This document shows positions 61,440 to 64,000 of a stretch of DNA of 64,000 nucleotides, piece by piece. Position numbers and translations under genes: made by a program. The notes beneath the pieces are model-generated. The model had not been told where the DNA came from and did no database searches. It saw only the letters and a program-made list of their open reading frames with translations. Each line of letters starts with the position of its first letter. Position 1 is the first letter of the stretch. Source of the stretch: a virus; the IMG/VR virus record IMGVR_UViG_3300020477_000990, positions 1 to 64,000 of that record; one strand, given 5' to 3'.

Positions 61440-61790
61440 ATGACAGAAGAGCAAAATTCAAATAGAAAATTTTTACCATCTAAAGAATCGGGAGATCACG
61501 ATCATGCGGAATTTAATAAAATAATGCATGAAATTGCTCCAAAAGAAATTCCAGCTAAATTTGTTGATATGATTAAAATTATCCGTAAAGATGGAACTGT
61601 TACTAATATGACAAGAGATGATATTGTTAATACTGTTCCTCTTGCAGGTCCAGTTGATTGGGAAAGCATAGCTGGTAATTATCATGATATCCGCGATATG
61701 GAAATTTATATAGATATGGATGCCTTAGAATATACAGTTCATAAAAATGTTCATCGAATGCTTGGTAAATTCTTTAAAAAAAGCAATTAA
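61440..61790 (+). CDS. Unknown acidic protein
   Basis: The 116-residue protein (MTEEQNSNRKFLPSKESGDHDHAE...) contains IIRKDGTVTNMTRDDIVNTVPLAGPVDW. It begins right after a terminator T run with no Shine-Dalgarno. Its transcript probably starts within the terminator, from the late-like box. No family recognised. Confidence 0.6.
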   Translation: MTEEQNSNRKFLPSKESGDHDHAEFNKIMHEIAPKEIPAKFVDMIKIIRKDGTVTNMTRDDIVNTVPLAGPVDWESIAGNYHDIRDMEIYIDMDALEYTVHKNVHRMLGKFFKKSN

Positions 61791-61821
61791 TTGACAATCT
61801 TATTAAAATATGTTATAAATA
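61791..61821 (+). promoter_or_regulatory. Composite promoter (TTGACA-N17-TATAAATA)
   Basis: A perfect -35 TTGACA at 61791-61796 is spaced 17 nt from TATAAATA (61814-61821). The second box is at once a sigma-70-like -10 (TATAAA) and a perfect T4-like late box. Confidence 0.65.
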
Positions 61822-61866
61822 CTAATACAAATTACCGTATTAAACAATAGGGGTTGGGGTAATATT

Positions 61867-62418
61867 ATGATAAAAACTATTTTAGCATTTCTTTATATTT
61901 CAGGCATTCTTGCCTTGGGAAGATTAATTCCACATCCACCAAACTTAACACCAATATTAGCCGCGGCTATTTTCGCTCCATACATTATTAATGATCGTTG
62001 GACAGCAATTGCAATTCCTTTAATGGCGATGTTTATTGCAGATTTAGTTATAGGGTTTCATCCATATATGTTATGGGTCTATGGTGCAATAGGTTTATCA
62101 ACTTTAATTAGTAAATGGTCAATGCAATTTAATAAAAAGTATATTCAATTAGGAGCAATGACAATAGTATCTTCTGTATTATTTTTTATAATAACAAATT
62201 TTGCAGTATGGACTATGTGGGATTACTATCCAAAAACATTAGATGGTTTAATAATGTGTTATACAATGGCAATACCATTTTTTCAAAATACATTATTAGG
62301 AACTATAATATATACAGCTCTAATGGCATCTTTAACTGTAGCATTAACTCGACCTTTTGAAAATACCTATGTACTGGTAATAAGCAAAGGAAGAGATTAT
62401 GTTAACAAACATTTTTAA
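61867..62418 (+). CDS. DUF6580-like membrane protein (putative transporter)
   Basis: The 183-residue protein has five to six hydrophobic helices. The start LGRLIPHPPNLTPILAAAIFAPYI and then FIADLVIGFHPYMLWVYG are typical of DUF6580 proteins (R-x2-PHPPNxTP, DLVxGFH), which resemble ECF-type vitamin transport components. It lies directly upstream of the TonB receptor gene and overlaps it by 20 nt, which suggests they work together in uptake. Family identification is by eye. ATTACC (61831) can pair with GGTAAT (61858), which would cover the GGGG ribosome-site region. Confidence 0.72.
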   Translation: MIKTILAFLYISGILALGRLIPHPPNLTPILAAAIFAPYIINDRWTAIAIPLMAMFIADLVIGFHPYMLWVYGAIGLSTLISKWSMQFNKKYIQLGAMTIVSSVLFFIITNFAVWTMWDYYPKTLDGLIMCYTMAIPFFQNTLLGTIIYTALMASLTVALTRPFENTYVLVISKGRDYVNKHF

Positions 62419-64000
62419 GTTAATAATAATATTTTTTATTTTTTTAGGAACAGCAAAAGCAAACGAATGCTATTGGGAAGAAATGAAAGACGAAACAATC
62501 GTTTGTGATTCGTTAGTTATTAATATACCAATATTTTTTACACAAACACCTTCACATAGAAGTAATGAAATACATAATAACGAATACATATTTCCAGACA
62601 ACGAAAGTATTCTAACAGATGCATTAAATGATGTAGCAAATTTTAATGCAGTACGTTCTGGATCAAAAGGACAACAAACATCGTTGTTTACTAGAGGAAC
62701 AAATTCAAATCATACATTAGTAACAATAAACGGATCAGCAATTACAGATCACTCAACAACTAATGGAGCAACAGATCTTAACAATGTAAATATAAATTTT
62801 GCAGATGGTATACATTTGTATACAGGTCCTATGAGTACTATATATGGACCTAATGCAATAGGTGGTGTAGTTGATATTAAAACAAGTGATGTTAAAGAAA
62901 ATGAAGTAGTAGTTACTTATGGATCTAACAATACCAAACAAACACATATTACAATTAGTGAAGGACTTACAAACTTTGGAATAAATTTTGAAGAATCAGA
63001 TGGTATATCAGTTTATCCAAAAGGTGATGAAAAAGATGGATACAACATACTTGGATTTAACTTTGGGCATTTAACAAAAATTGATAATACAGAAATTAAA
63101 ATAACAGGAATAACAAATAATACAGAATCAGATTTAGATGCCTCGGGTGCAGATGATTTAGACTATACAGCAGATACTAAATTCCATTTTGGACAAATAC
63201 AAACGTCTACAGAATTTGATGATGGAATTCTTAAATCAGTTTTAGATGCTACCTATTGGGATAGAGAATATGTAAATGGAACTGAACTTGATGAATATGA
63301 TTCTTCAGCTATACATTCAGCAACTGATTGGATAACACACACAGACAAAGTATCAACTAAAACTGGAATAGATACTGTTTGGTATAGTGCAGAATTTAAC
63401 AACAGAGGATCTTATAATTCTTCTGTAGATAAAGAAGCAAATACAACTGGAATATATCATAACTTTGATTATGTAACTGATTTAGATATAGTAGTGTCAG
63501 GTGGTTTACGTTATGATTATAATTCAATAGTAGAAGGGCAATCAACATACAGGGTTGGTACAGCATACAAAGGACTTTACTTTAGTAGGTCAACAGGGTA
63601 TAGAGCACCAACACTATATGAATTATATGGTGCAGACAATTACGGGTATAGTGGTAATGAAAATTTAAAAGCAGAAACTTCTGTAACAAATGAAGTAGGA
63701 TATAAATTTGGTAACCAAACGGTAAATGGTAATATTAGTGTTTACTCTACAAAAATAGAAGATATGATTACATACGGAAATTCTACTTATAGTAATGACA
63801 GTAATGGTACGTCAACAATGAAAGGTGGAGATATAAAACTTAACTACTACAAAGGAAATTATGGTTTTCATAATAGTATAGCATTTACGTCAGCACAAGA
63901 CTCAACTGATAATTGGTTAAAAAGAAGACCACATACGATTATCAATTCATCAGTTAGTTATTATAAAGATGATTTTTATATTTCTCCAAGTATAAATTAT
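62399..64000 (+). CDS. TonB-dependent outer-membrane receptor (BtuB-like), incomplete
   Basis: The open frame runs 534 codons to the window edge. It starts with a signal peptide (FKLIIIFFIFLGTAKA). A plug domain follows (SLFTRGTNSNHTLVTINGSAI, then YTGPMSTIYGPNAIGGVVDI), and then beta-barrel strands, including RSTGYRAPTLYELYG, a well-known block of BtuB/TonB receptors. ATG 62399 follows GGAAGAG and overlaps the DUF6580 gene. A TonB box is not clear (LVINIP). Such receptors import vitamin B12, haem or siderophores with host TonB. One in a phage genome is unexpected. Confidence 0.9.
   Translation, partial: MLTNIFKLIIIFFIFLGTAKANECYWEEMKDETIVCDSLVINIPIFFTQTPSHRSNEIHNNEYIFPDNESILTDALNDVANFNAVRSGSKGQQTSLFTRGTNSNHTLVTINGSAITDHSTTNGATDLNNVNINFADGIHLYTGPMSTIYGPNAIGGVVDIKTSDVKENEVVVTYGSNNTKQTHITISEGLTNFGINFEESDGISVYPKGDEKDGYNILGFNFGHLTKIDNTEIKITGITNNTESDLDASGADDLDYTADTKFHFGQIQTSTEFDDGILKSVLDATYWDREYVNGTELDEYDSSAIHSATDWITHTDKVSTKTGIDTVWYSAEFNNRGSYNSSVDKEANTTGIYHNFDYVTDLDIVVSGGLRYDYNSIVEGQSTYRVGTAYKGLYFSRSTGYRAPTLYELYGADNYGYSGNENLKAETSVTNEVGYKFGNQTVNGNISVYSTKIEDMITYGNSTYSNDSNGTSTMKGGDIKLNYYKGNYGFHNSIAFTSAQDSTDNWLKRRPHTIINSSVSYYKDDFYISPSINY

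Follow-up and report, generated by a model that had tools for sequence, protein, structure and literature searches.

A proposed vitamin B12 import module of marine T4-type phages, formed by a DUF6580 membrane protein and a BtuB-like receptor

Two overlapping genes of a marine T4-type phage, one for a DUF6580 membrane protein and one for a BtuB-like TonB-dependent receptor, probably form a module, encoded by the phage, for the import of vitamin B12 (cobalamin). They lie at the right end of the window, which is the whole stretch of 64,000 nucleotides analysed here (bases 1-64000 of the 328,149-base virus record IMGVR_UViG_3300020477_000990, G000; Table 1), and the window's lineage comprises five phages, namely this record and the contigs L005, L006, L008/L015 and L014 from other metagenomes. 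B12 import is favoured because the best sequence and predicted-structure matches of the receptor are to BtuB, with most of the calcium/B12 acidic positions kept, because the predicted fold of DUF6580 matches ECF S components, because the two genes are paired in 38 of 79 contigs and in both orders, because an AdoCbl-II riboswitch precedes DUF6580 or the receptor in 15 contigs, because a TokK/CysS-like methylase is encoded downstream in the window's lineage, and because both genes are under purifying selection. We infer that B12 is the substrate, that it passes through DUF6580 and that the phage benefits, which suggests that bacteria infected by these viruses are made to take up B12 on behalf of B12-dependent enzymes that the viruses encode. 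The balance tips slightly towards a wider picture, in which T4-type phages of the sea possess every part of a circuit for cobalamin import: the riboswitch, the BtuB-like outer-membrane receptor and DUF6580, the last representing a family of solitary B12 transporters that had not been recognised before. In this picture the circuit senses B12 in several lineages and feeds virus-encoded B12-dependent methylases, and the window's lineage has a different, undescribed conserved leader in the position of the aptamer.

Table 1. Features of the DUF6580-receptor region and of the phage record around it
Feature	Position	Strand	Remarks
Phage gene, 116 aa	61440..61790	+	Left border of module; conserved upstream
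Putative promoter	61791..61821	+	TTGACA 61791-61796, 17-nt spacer, TATAAATA 61814-61821
31-nt leader TTACCGTATTNAACAATAGNGGTTGGGGTAA	61832..61862	+	Conserved block where relatives have B12 riboswitch
DUF6580 integral membrane protein, 183 aa	61867..62418	+	PF20221; proposed inner-membrane B12 transporter
BtuB-like TonB-dependent receptor	62399..64000 (window edge; ends record 64213)	+	Plug and barrel domains, TIGR01779
SufB gene	L002:4019-5485 (Suf genes together, record 65019-72095)		Score exceeds equivalog cut-off
Radical SAM methylase gene	L002:7294-9075		Predicted cobalamin-dependent
SufC gene	L002:9847-10530		Score exceeds equivalog cut-off
Short SufD-like gene	L002:10517-11095
tmRNA	L003:14937-15228 (record about 94937-95228)		Permuted, two-piece, alphaproteobacterial type
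Gp23 major capsid gene	207253-208221		T4-type, E 6e-97

A preliminary description of the window had proposed both a DUF6580-like membrane gene and a BtuB-like receptor gene, and both assignments are borne out. The record contains the whole receptor ORF (604 aa), whose final 213 bases lie beyond the window, and the ORF encodes a signal-peptide-like start, a Plug domain (PF07715) and a TonB_dep_Rec_b-barrel domain (PF00593), of which the signal peptide and barrel point to an outer-membrane location. It resembles E. coli BtuB in several respects. The best named family is TIGR01779, vitamin B12 receptor (E 7e-59, 199.8 bits), with heme and siderophore receptors matching less well; the nearest solved relative in the PDB is BtuB (E 1e-31), and the top 12 fold matches of the AF2 model (pLDDT 80) are all E. 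coli BtuB. A TonB-box-like segment is predicted in the window's lineage, DSLVINI aligning there with DTLVVTA. We take the acidic loop residues with which E. coli BtuB binds calcium and B12 to be D179, D193, D195, D230 and D241. Across 16 viral receptors, D195 is Asp in all 16, D193 is Glu or Asp in all, D230 is mostly Asp and D241 is Asp or Asn, whereas D179 is replaced by Ser throughout. The receptor further differs from E. coli BtuB in being phage-encoded, in having a DUF6580 partner, in its identity of only ~23-26% and in scoring far below the TIGR01779 equivalog cut-off (599.7 bits), which none of 34 records reached. Because this strict cut-off failed, the receptor is termed BtuB-like and not filed as BtuB; the low score and the loss of D179 are counted against B12 import. 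The dN/dS of the receptor within the lineage is about 0.08-0.30, consistent with purifying selection. When its phylogeny was set beside that of bacterial BtuB, as had been proposed, the viral receptors grouped apart from the seven bacterial BtuBs sampled (100/100 support), in a tree that sampled few bacteria and has long branches.

The DUF6580 protein matches PF20221 with 150.2 bits (E 8e-44), above the gathering score of 27, and the same profile matches 26 of 26 viral members. Its ORF and that of the receptor overlap by 20 nt on the same strand, which makes the translational coupling claimed in the preliminary description plausible; the overlap is the part observed. When the AF2 model of DUF6580 (pLDDT 82) is compared with PDB folds, ECF S components (RibU, ThiT, FolT and others; PF12822) occupy the first six places, with Foldseek probabilities of 0.90-0.99, weak E-values (0.1-0.4) and TM-scores of about 0.5-0.6. 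Unlike ECF S components, the viral DUF6580 proteins gave no match to PF12822, no EcfT was detected in 34 phage records, and no profile match to BtuM or other S components was found among PDB chains at E up to 5-10; the weak Foldseek E-values, the missing sequence link and the missing EcfT all weigh against B12 import. Within the lineage, dN/dS is about 0.09-0.22, again consistent with purifying selection. On the strength of the modelled fold, we propose that DUF6580 is an inner-membrane B12 transporter with a fold like the six-helix one of ECF S components. By analogy, its closest functional precedent would be BtuM, a solitary S-component B12 transporter whose genes lie next to btuB (Rempel et al. 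2018, PMC6072759). Like BtuM, DUF6580 is a small S-component-like membrane protein with a btuB-type neighbour, encoded on a replicon that lacks an ECF module, although the two have no detectable sequence similarity. BtuM has an invariant cobalt-ligand Cys. In viral DUF6580, Cys131 is nearly invariant.

The search of viral contigs that had been suggested recovered DUF6580 in the 79 IMG/VR contigs mentioned above. Among the 38 in which a receptor adjoins it on the same strand, DUF6580 comes first in 26 and the receptor in 12, and the paired genes mostly overlap or stand within about 65 nt of each other. Pairs occur in 12 of 20 DUF6580 clusters (70% identity), and 12 records contain the pair together with a T4-type Gp23. 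About half of the DUF6580 contigs have no neighbouring receptor, which we count against B12 import.

The leaders of related operons bear on the ligand. Six AdoCbl-II matches served to build a covariance model, which identified 15 copies in 1.14 Mb (93 loci). Every copy stands directly ahead of DUF6580 or the receptor, with no match at any other place; in L073 and L090 the copy lies between the two genes, and the other copies precede DUF6580. Copies in 12 distinct contigs are independently confirmed by Rfam RF01689, 96.7% of the structure is paired, and 13 of 21 pairs have compensatory changes. Riboswitch, gene pair and Gp23 coincide in four contigs (L032, L067, L072 and L078), and in L018 and L163 the riboswitch precedes a DUF6580 without receptor. 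The AdoCbl-II or AdoCbl-variant riboswitch (RF01689) was described from marine metagenomes, its taxa being given only as 'Marine' in the table of 2010 (PMC2864571). Here it is found, with covariation, on the operon in related viral contigs, several of them phage contigs, but not in the leader of the window. If the B12 reading is true, it would suggest that phages are the owners of some marine AdoCbl-variant riboswitches seen in metagenomes.

In the window, the region 61600-62450 gave no match to Rfam or to the AdoCbl-II model, including with filters off. A diverged AdoCbl-II element in the leader was therefore rejected, and the lack of a recognisable riboswitch in this copy speaks against B12 import. 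The 31-nt block at this position is present in all five lineage phages while nearby bases differ, and with the sequence patterns used no copy was found outside the window's lineage. It has no Rfam match, no unusual folding energy and no stable fold; it is a candidate cis-regulatory element. The putative promoter ahead of it had been described as a sigma-70 -35 combined with a T4-like late box, and this description is upheld by comparison, TATAAATA reading as a -10 hexamer that overlaps a T4-type late box. The -35 is kept in the five lineage phages (TTGACA in four, TTGACG in L005), as is TATAAATA, with varying flanking bases. With 5 occurrences in the window where 18 would be expected, TATAAATA is also rarer than chance, and each of the five is on the + strand. 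The TTGACA-17-TATAAATA motif is not a chance occurrence.

In all five lineage phages, a radical SAM gene follows the receptor at a distance of up to about 5 kb, and its product is more than 90% identical across them. In phmmer comparisons it matches TokK (E 5e-49, residues 15-388) and CysS (E 9e-33), two cobalamin-dependent methylases that are its solved relatives. By homology it combines B12 and radical SAM domains and is predicted to have the corresponding activity, although PF02310 did not detect the B12 domain in this TokK/CysS-like methylase. B12-type radical SAM genes also occur near DUF6580 in L007 and L053. A B12-dependent ribonucleotide reductase was considered as the B12 consumer and rejected, the phage's own enzyme being class Ia NrdAB; this and the PF02310 miss are both counted against B12 import. 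The MoxR/VWA genes were likewise rejected as a cobaltochelatase CobS/CobT pair, having no NCBIfam match.

These observations are compatible with the following route. Expression from the phage promoter would bring the BtuB-like receptor to the host outer membrane, where it would bind B12 with calcium, and energy from host TonB-ExbBD would move B12 into the periplasm. The inner-membrane DUF6580 might then act as a solitary S component in the manner of BtuM, passing B12 to the cytoplasm with no ECF module of phage origin. The imported B12 could serve cobalamin-dependent enzymes of the phage, above all the TokK/CysS-like radical SAM methylase, and might also reach B12 enzymes of the host. The AdoCbl-II riboswitch of several relatives would sense B12 and set the expression of the module.

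The preliminary description had left open whether vitamin or iron uptake was involved; the vitamin part is strongly supported and can be narrowed to B12 on the basis of the BtuB-type receptor, the ECF-S-like fold, the riboswitches and the B12-dependent enzyme. TonB receptors readily change ligand and ECF S components serve many vitamins, so that the pair might import iron, heme, a siderophore or another cofactor and resemble BtuB through family membership only, as the weaker heme and siderophore matches would allow. However, BtuB comes first in every sequence and structure ranking, AdoCbl-II aptamers lie on the same operons in relatives and a cobalamin-dependent enzyme is encoded next door, and we regard another ligand as unlikely. 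Somewhat harder to sustain is superinfection exclusion or receptor swap, in which the displayed BtuB-like barrel would replace, compete with or titrate the host receptor of rival phages. Host TonB receptors, BtuB included, are known phage receptors, and the probable outer-membrane location of the barrel would suit such a role. The TonB-receptor-like protein of pelagiphage Skadi has also been discussed in relation to phage adsorption (PMC10504331). Yet superinfection exclusion leaves unexplained the inner-membrane S-component-like partner in 38 contigs, the B12 riboswitches, the kept calcium/B12 acidic residues and the lone DUF6580 behind an AdoCbl-II riboswitch in L018 and L163, and it is less likely than B12 import. 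Neither it nor an altered surface composition, both raised in the preliminary description, found positive evidence, and the latter would equally leave the inner-membrane partner and the riboswitch unexplained.

Extension of the sequence to the right of the window, as had been advised, reached the end of the receptor and, further on, the T4-type capsid gene, which confirms the phage-like genome proposed earlier. All four sister contigs share the DUF6580-receptor pair and most of the downstream content, including GNAT, B12-type radical SAM and 2OG-oxygenase-like genes; the desaturase gene is downstream of the pair throughout the lineage except in L014, where it is upstream. On the left, the 116-aa gene is in the identical position in L005, L006 and L015, and in L014 its homologue is separated from the pair by a few inserted genes. 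Further upstream, HNH, VWA and AT-hook-type genes are common to L006, L015 and L014, the contigs reaching far enough. Chimeric assembly, which had been feared for the right end, is excluded because the gene neighbourhood recurs in four further marine phage contigs, and GC content between 56 and 64 kb (~29-35%) has no sharp change at the suspected join. SufB, SufC and SufD genes are absent from the corresponding stretch of the four sister phages; in the window's phage only, they are interleaved among its many radical SAM and 2OG-oxygenase-like genes. Although IMG/VR contigs may include host sequence and host-type metabolic genes (SufBCD, desaturase) follow the pair, it is very improbable that the pair represents host DNA contamination, a chimera or a host operon that was captured and plays no part in infection, given the synteny across five independent assemblies, the T4-type capsid genes in pair-bearing records, and the separation of the viral receptors from the sampled bacterial BtuBs together with purifying selection.

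TonB has to come from the host, which is probably not a SAR11 strain such as Pelagibacter HTCC1062 or HTCC1002, because these have no TonB-dependent transporters (PMC3400609) and no TonB_C domain was detectable in this phage; a SAR11 host is accordingly doubtful. TonB-receptor-type genes have been reported from phages before, Mar_Mega_1 having SusC (PMC9723777) and pelagiphage Skadi a TonB-dependent receptor (PMC10504331), but the accessible text of these two reports describes no B12 type, S-component partner or riboswitch. Marine myophages Melnitz and Mosig use riboswitches as well (PMC9004378), of the glutamine class, so that ligand and target genes differ; the cobalamin riboswitch upstream of btuB in that report belongs to the host, not the phage. 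Among the plasmids searched, only distant BtuBs and no DUF6580 were found, and two scans of genome contigs with narrow patterns recovered no cellular relative. GenBank phage records contained no DUF6580, and their full-length BtuB matches sit in records resembling bacterial chromosome contigs. A fold search against viral structures gave no significant match. In the open-access literature searched, outside which most subscription papers and preprints fall, there was neither a report of a phage B12-uptake module nor a mention of DUF6580.

B12 is scarce in the ocean and needed by many marine bacteria. If phages install their own B12 import, infection takes a direct part in the competition for B12, and the cofactor demand of phages becomes testable. 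The same reading, if true, would assign a function to DUF6580 and, for some bacteria whose inner-membrane B12 transporter is missing, supply a candidate.

Several minor observations concern the surroundings of DUF6580 in other contigs. In L018, L143, L145 and L163, a conserved ORF of ~60 aa, lipoprotein-like and with ITQTFTW or a close variant at its end, comes directly after a receptor-less DUF6580, and in L040-L044 and L183 a secreted protein of 115-120 aa stands before DUF6580 in place of that ORF. The site between a MQLIPRYLV gene and a primase-like gene holds a lone BtuB-like receptor in L113, L119 and L128, and a small secreted protein with DUF6580 in L043, L172 and L183, as if parts of the module were exchanged among related phages. 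In L007 (10688-12779, a 171-kb phage contig), DUF6580 is followed by genes like those of a TctA-type tripartite tricarboxylate transporter and a secreted binding protein. In L046, L047, L049 and L111, an element like manA RNA (42-50 bits, below the gathering score) ends shortly upstream of a receptor-first pair. Because a hairpin of terminator type and an independent TTGACA promoter seem to come after it, manA RNA was dropped as the leader of receptor-first operons. The same region contains a glutamine riboswitch ahead of an ORF of 50-63 aa, and in L046 and L111 a freshwater-2 RNA lies after DUF6580.
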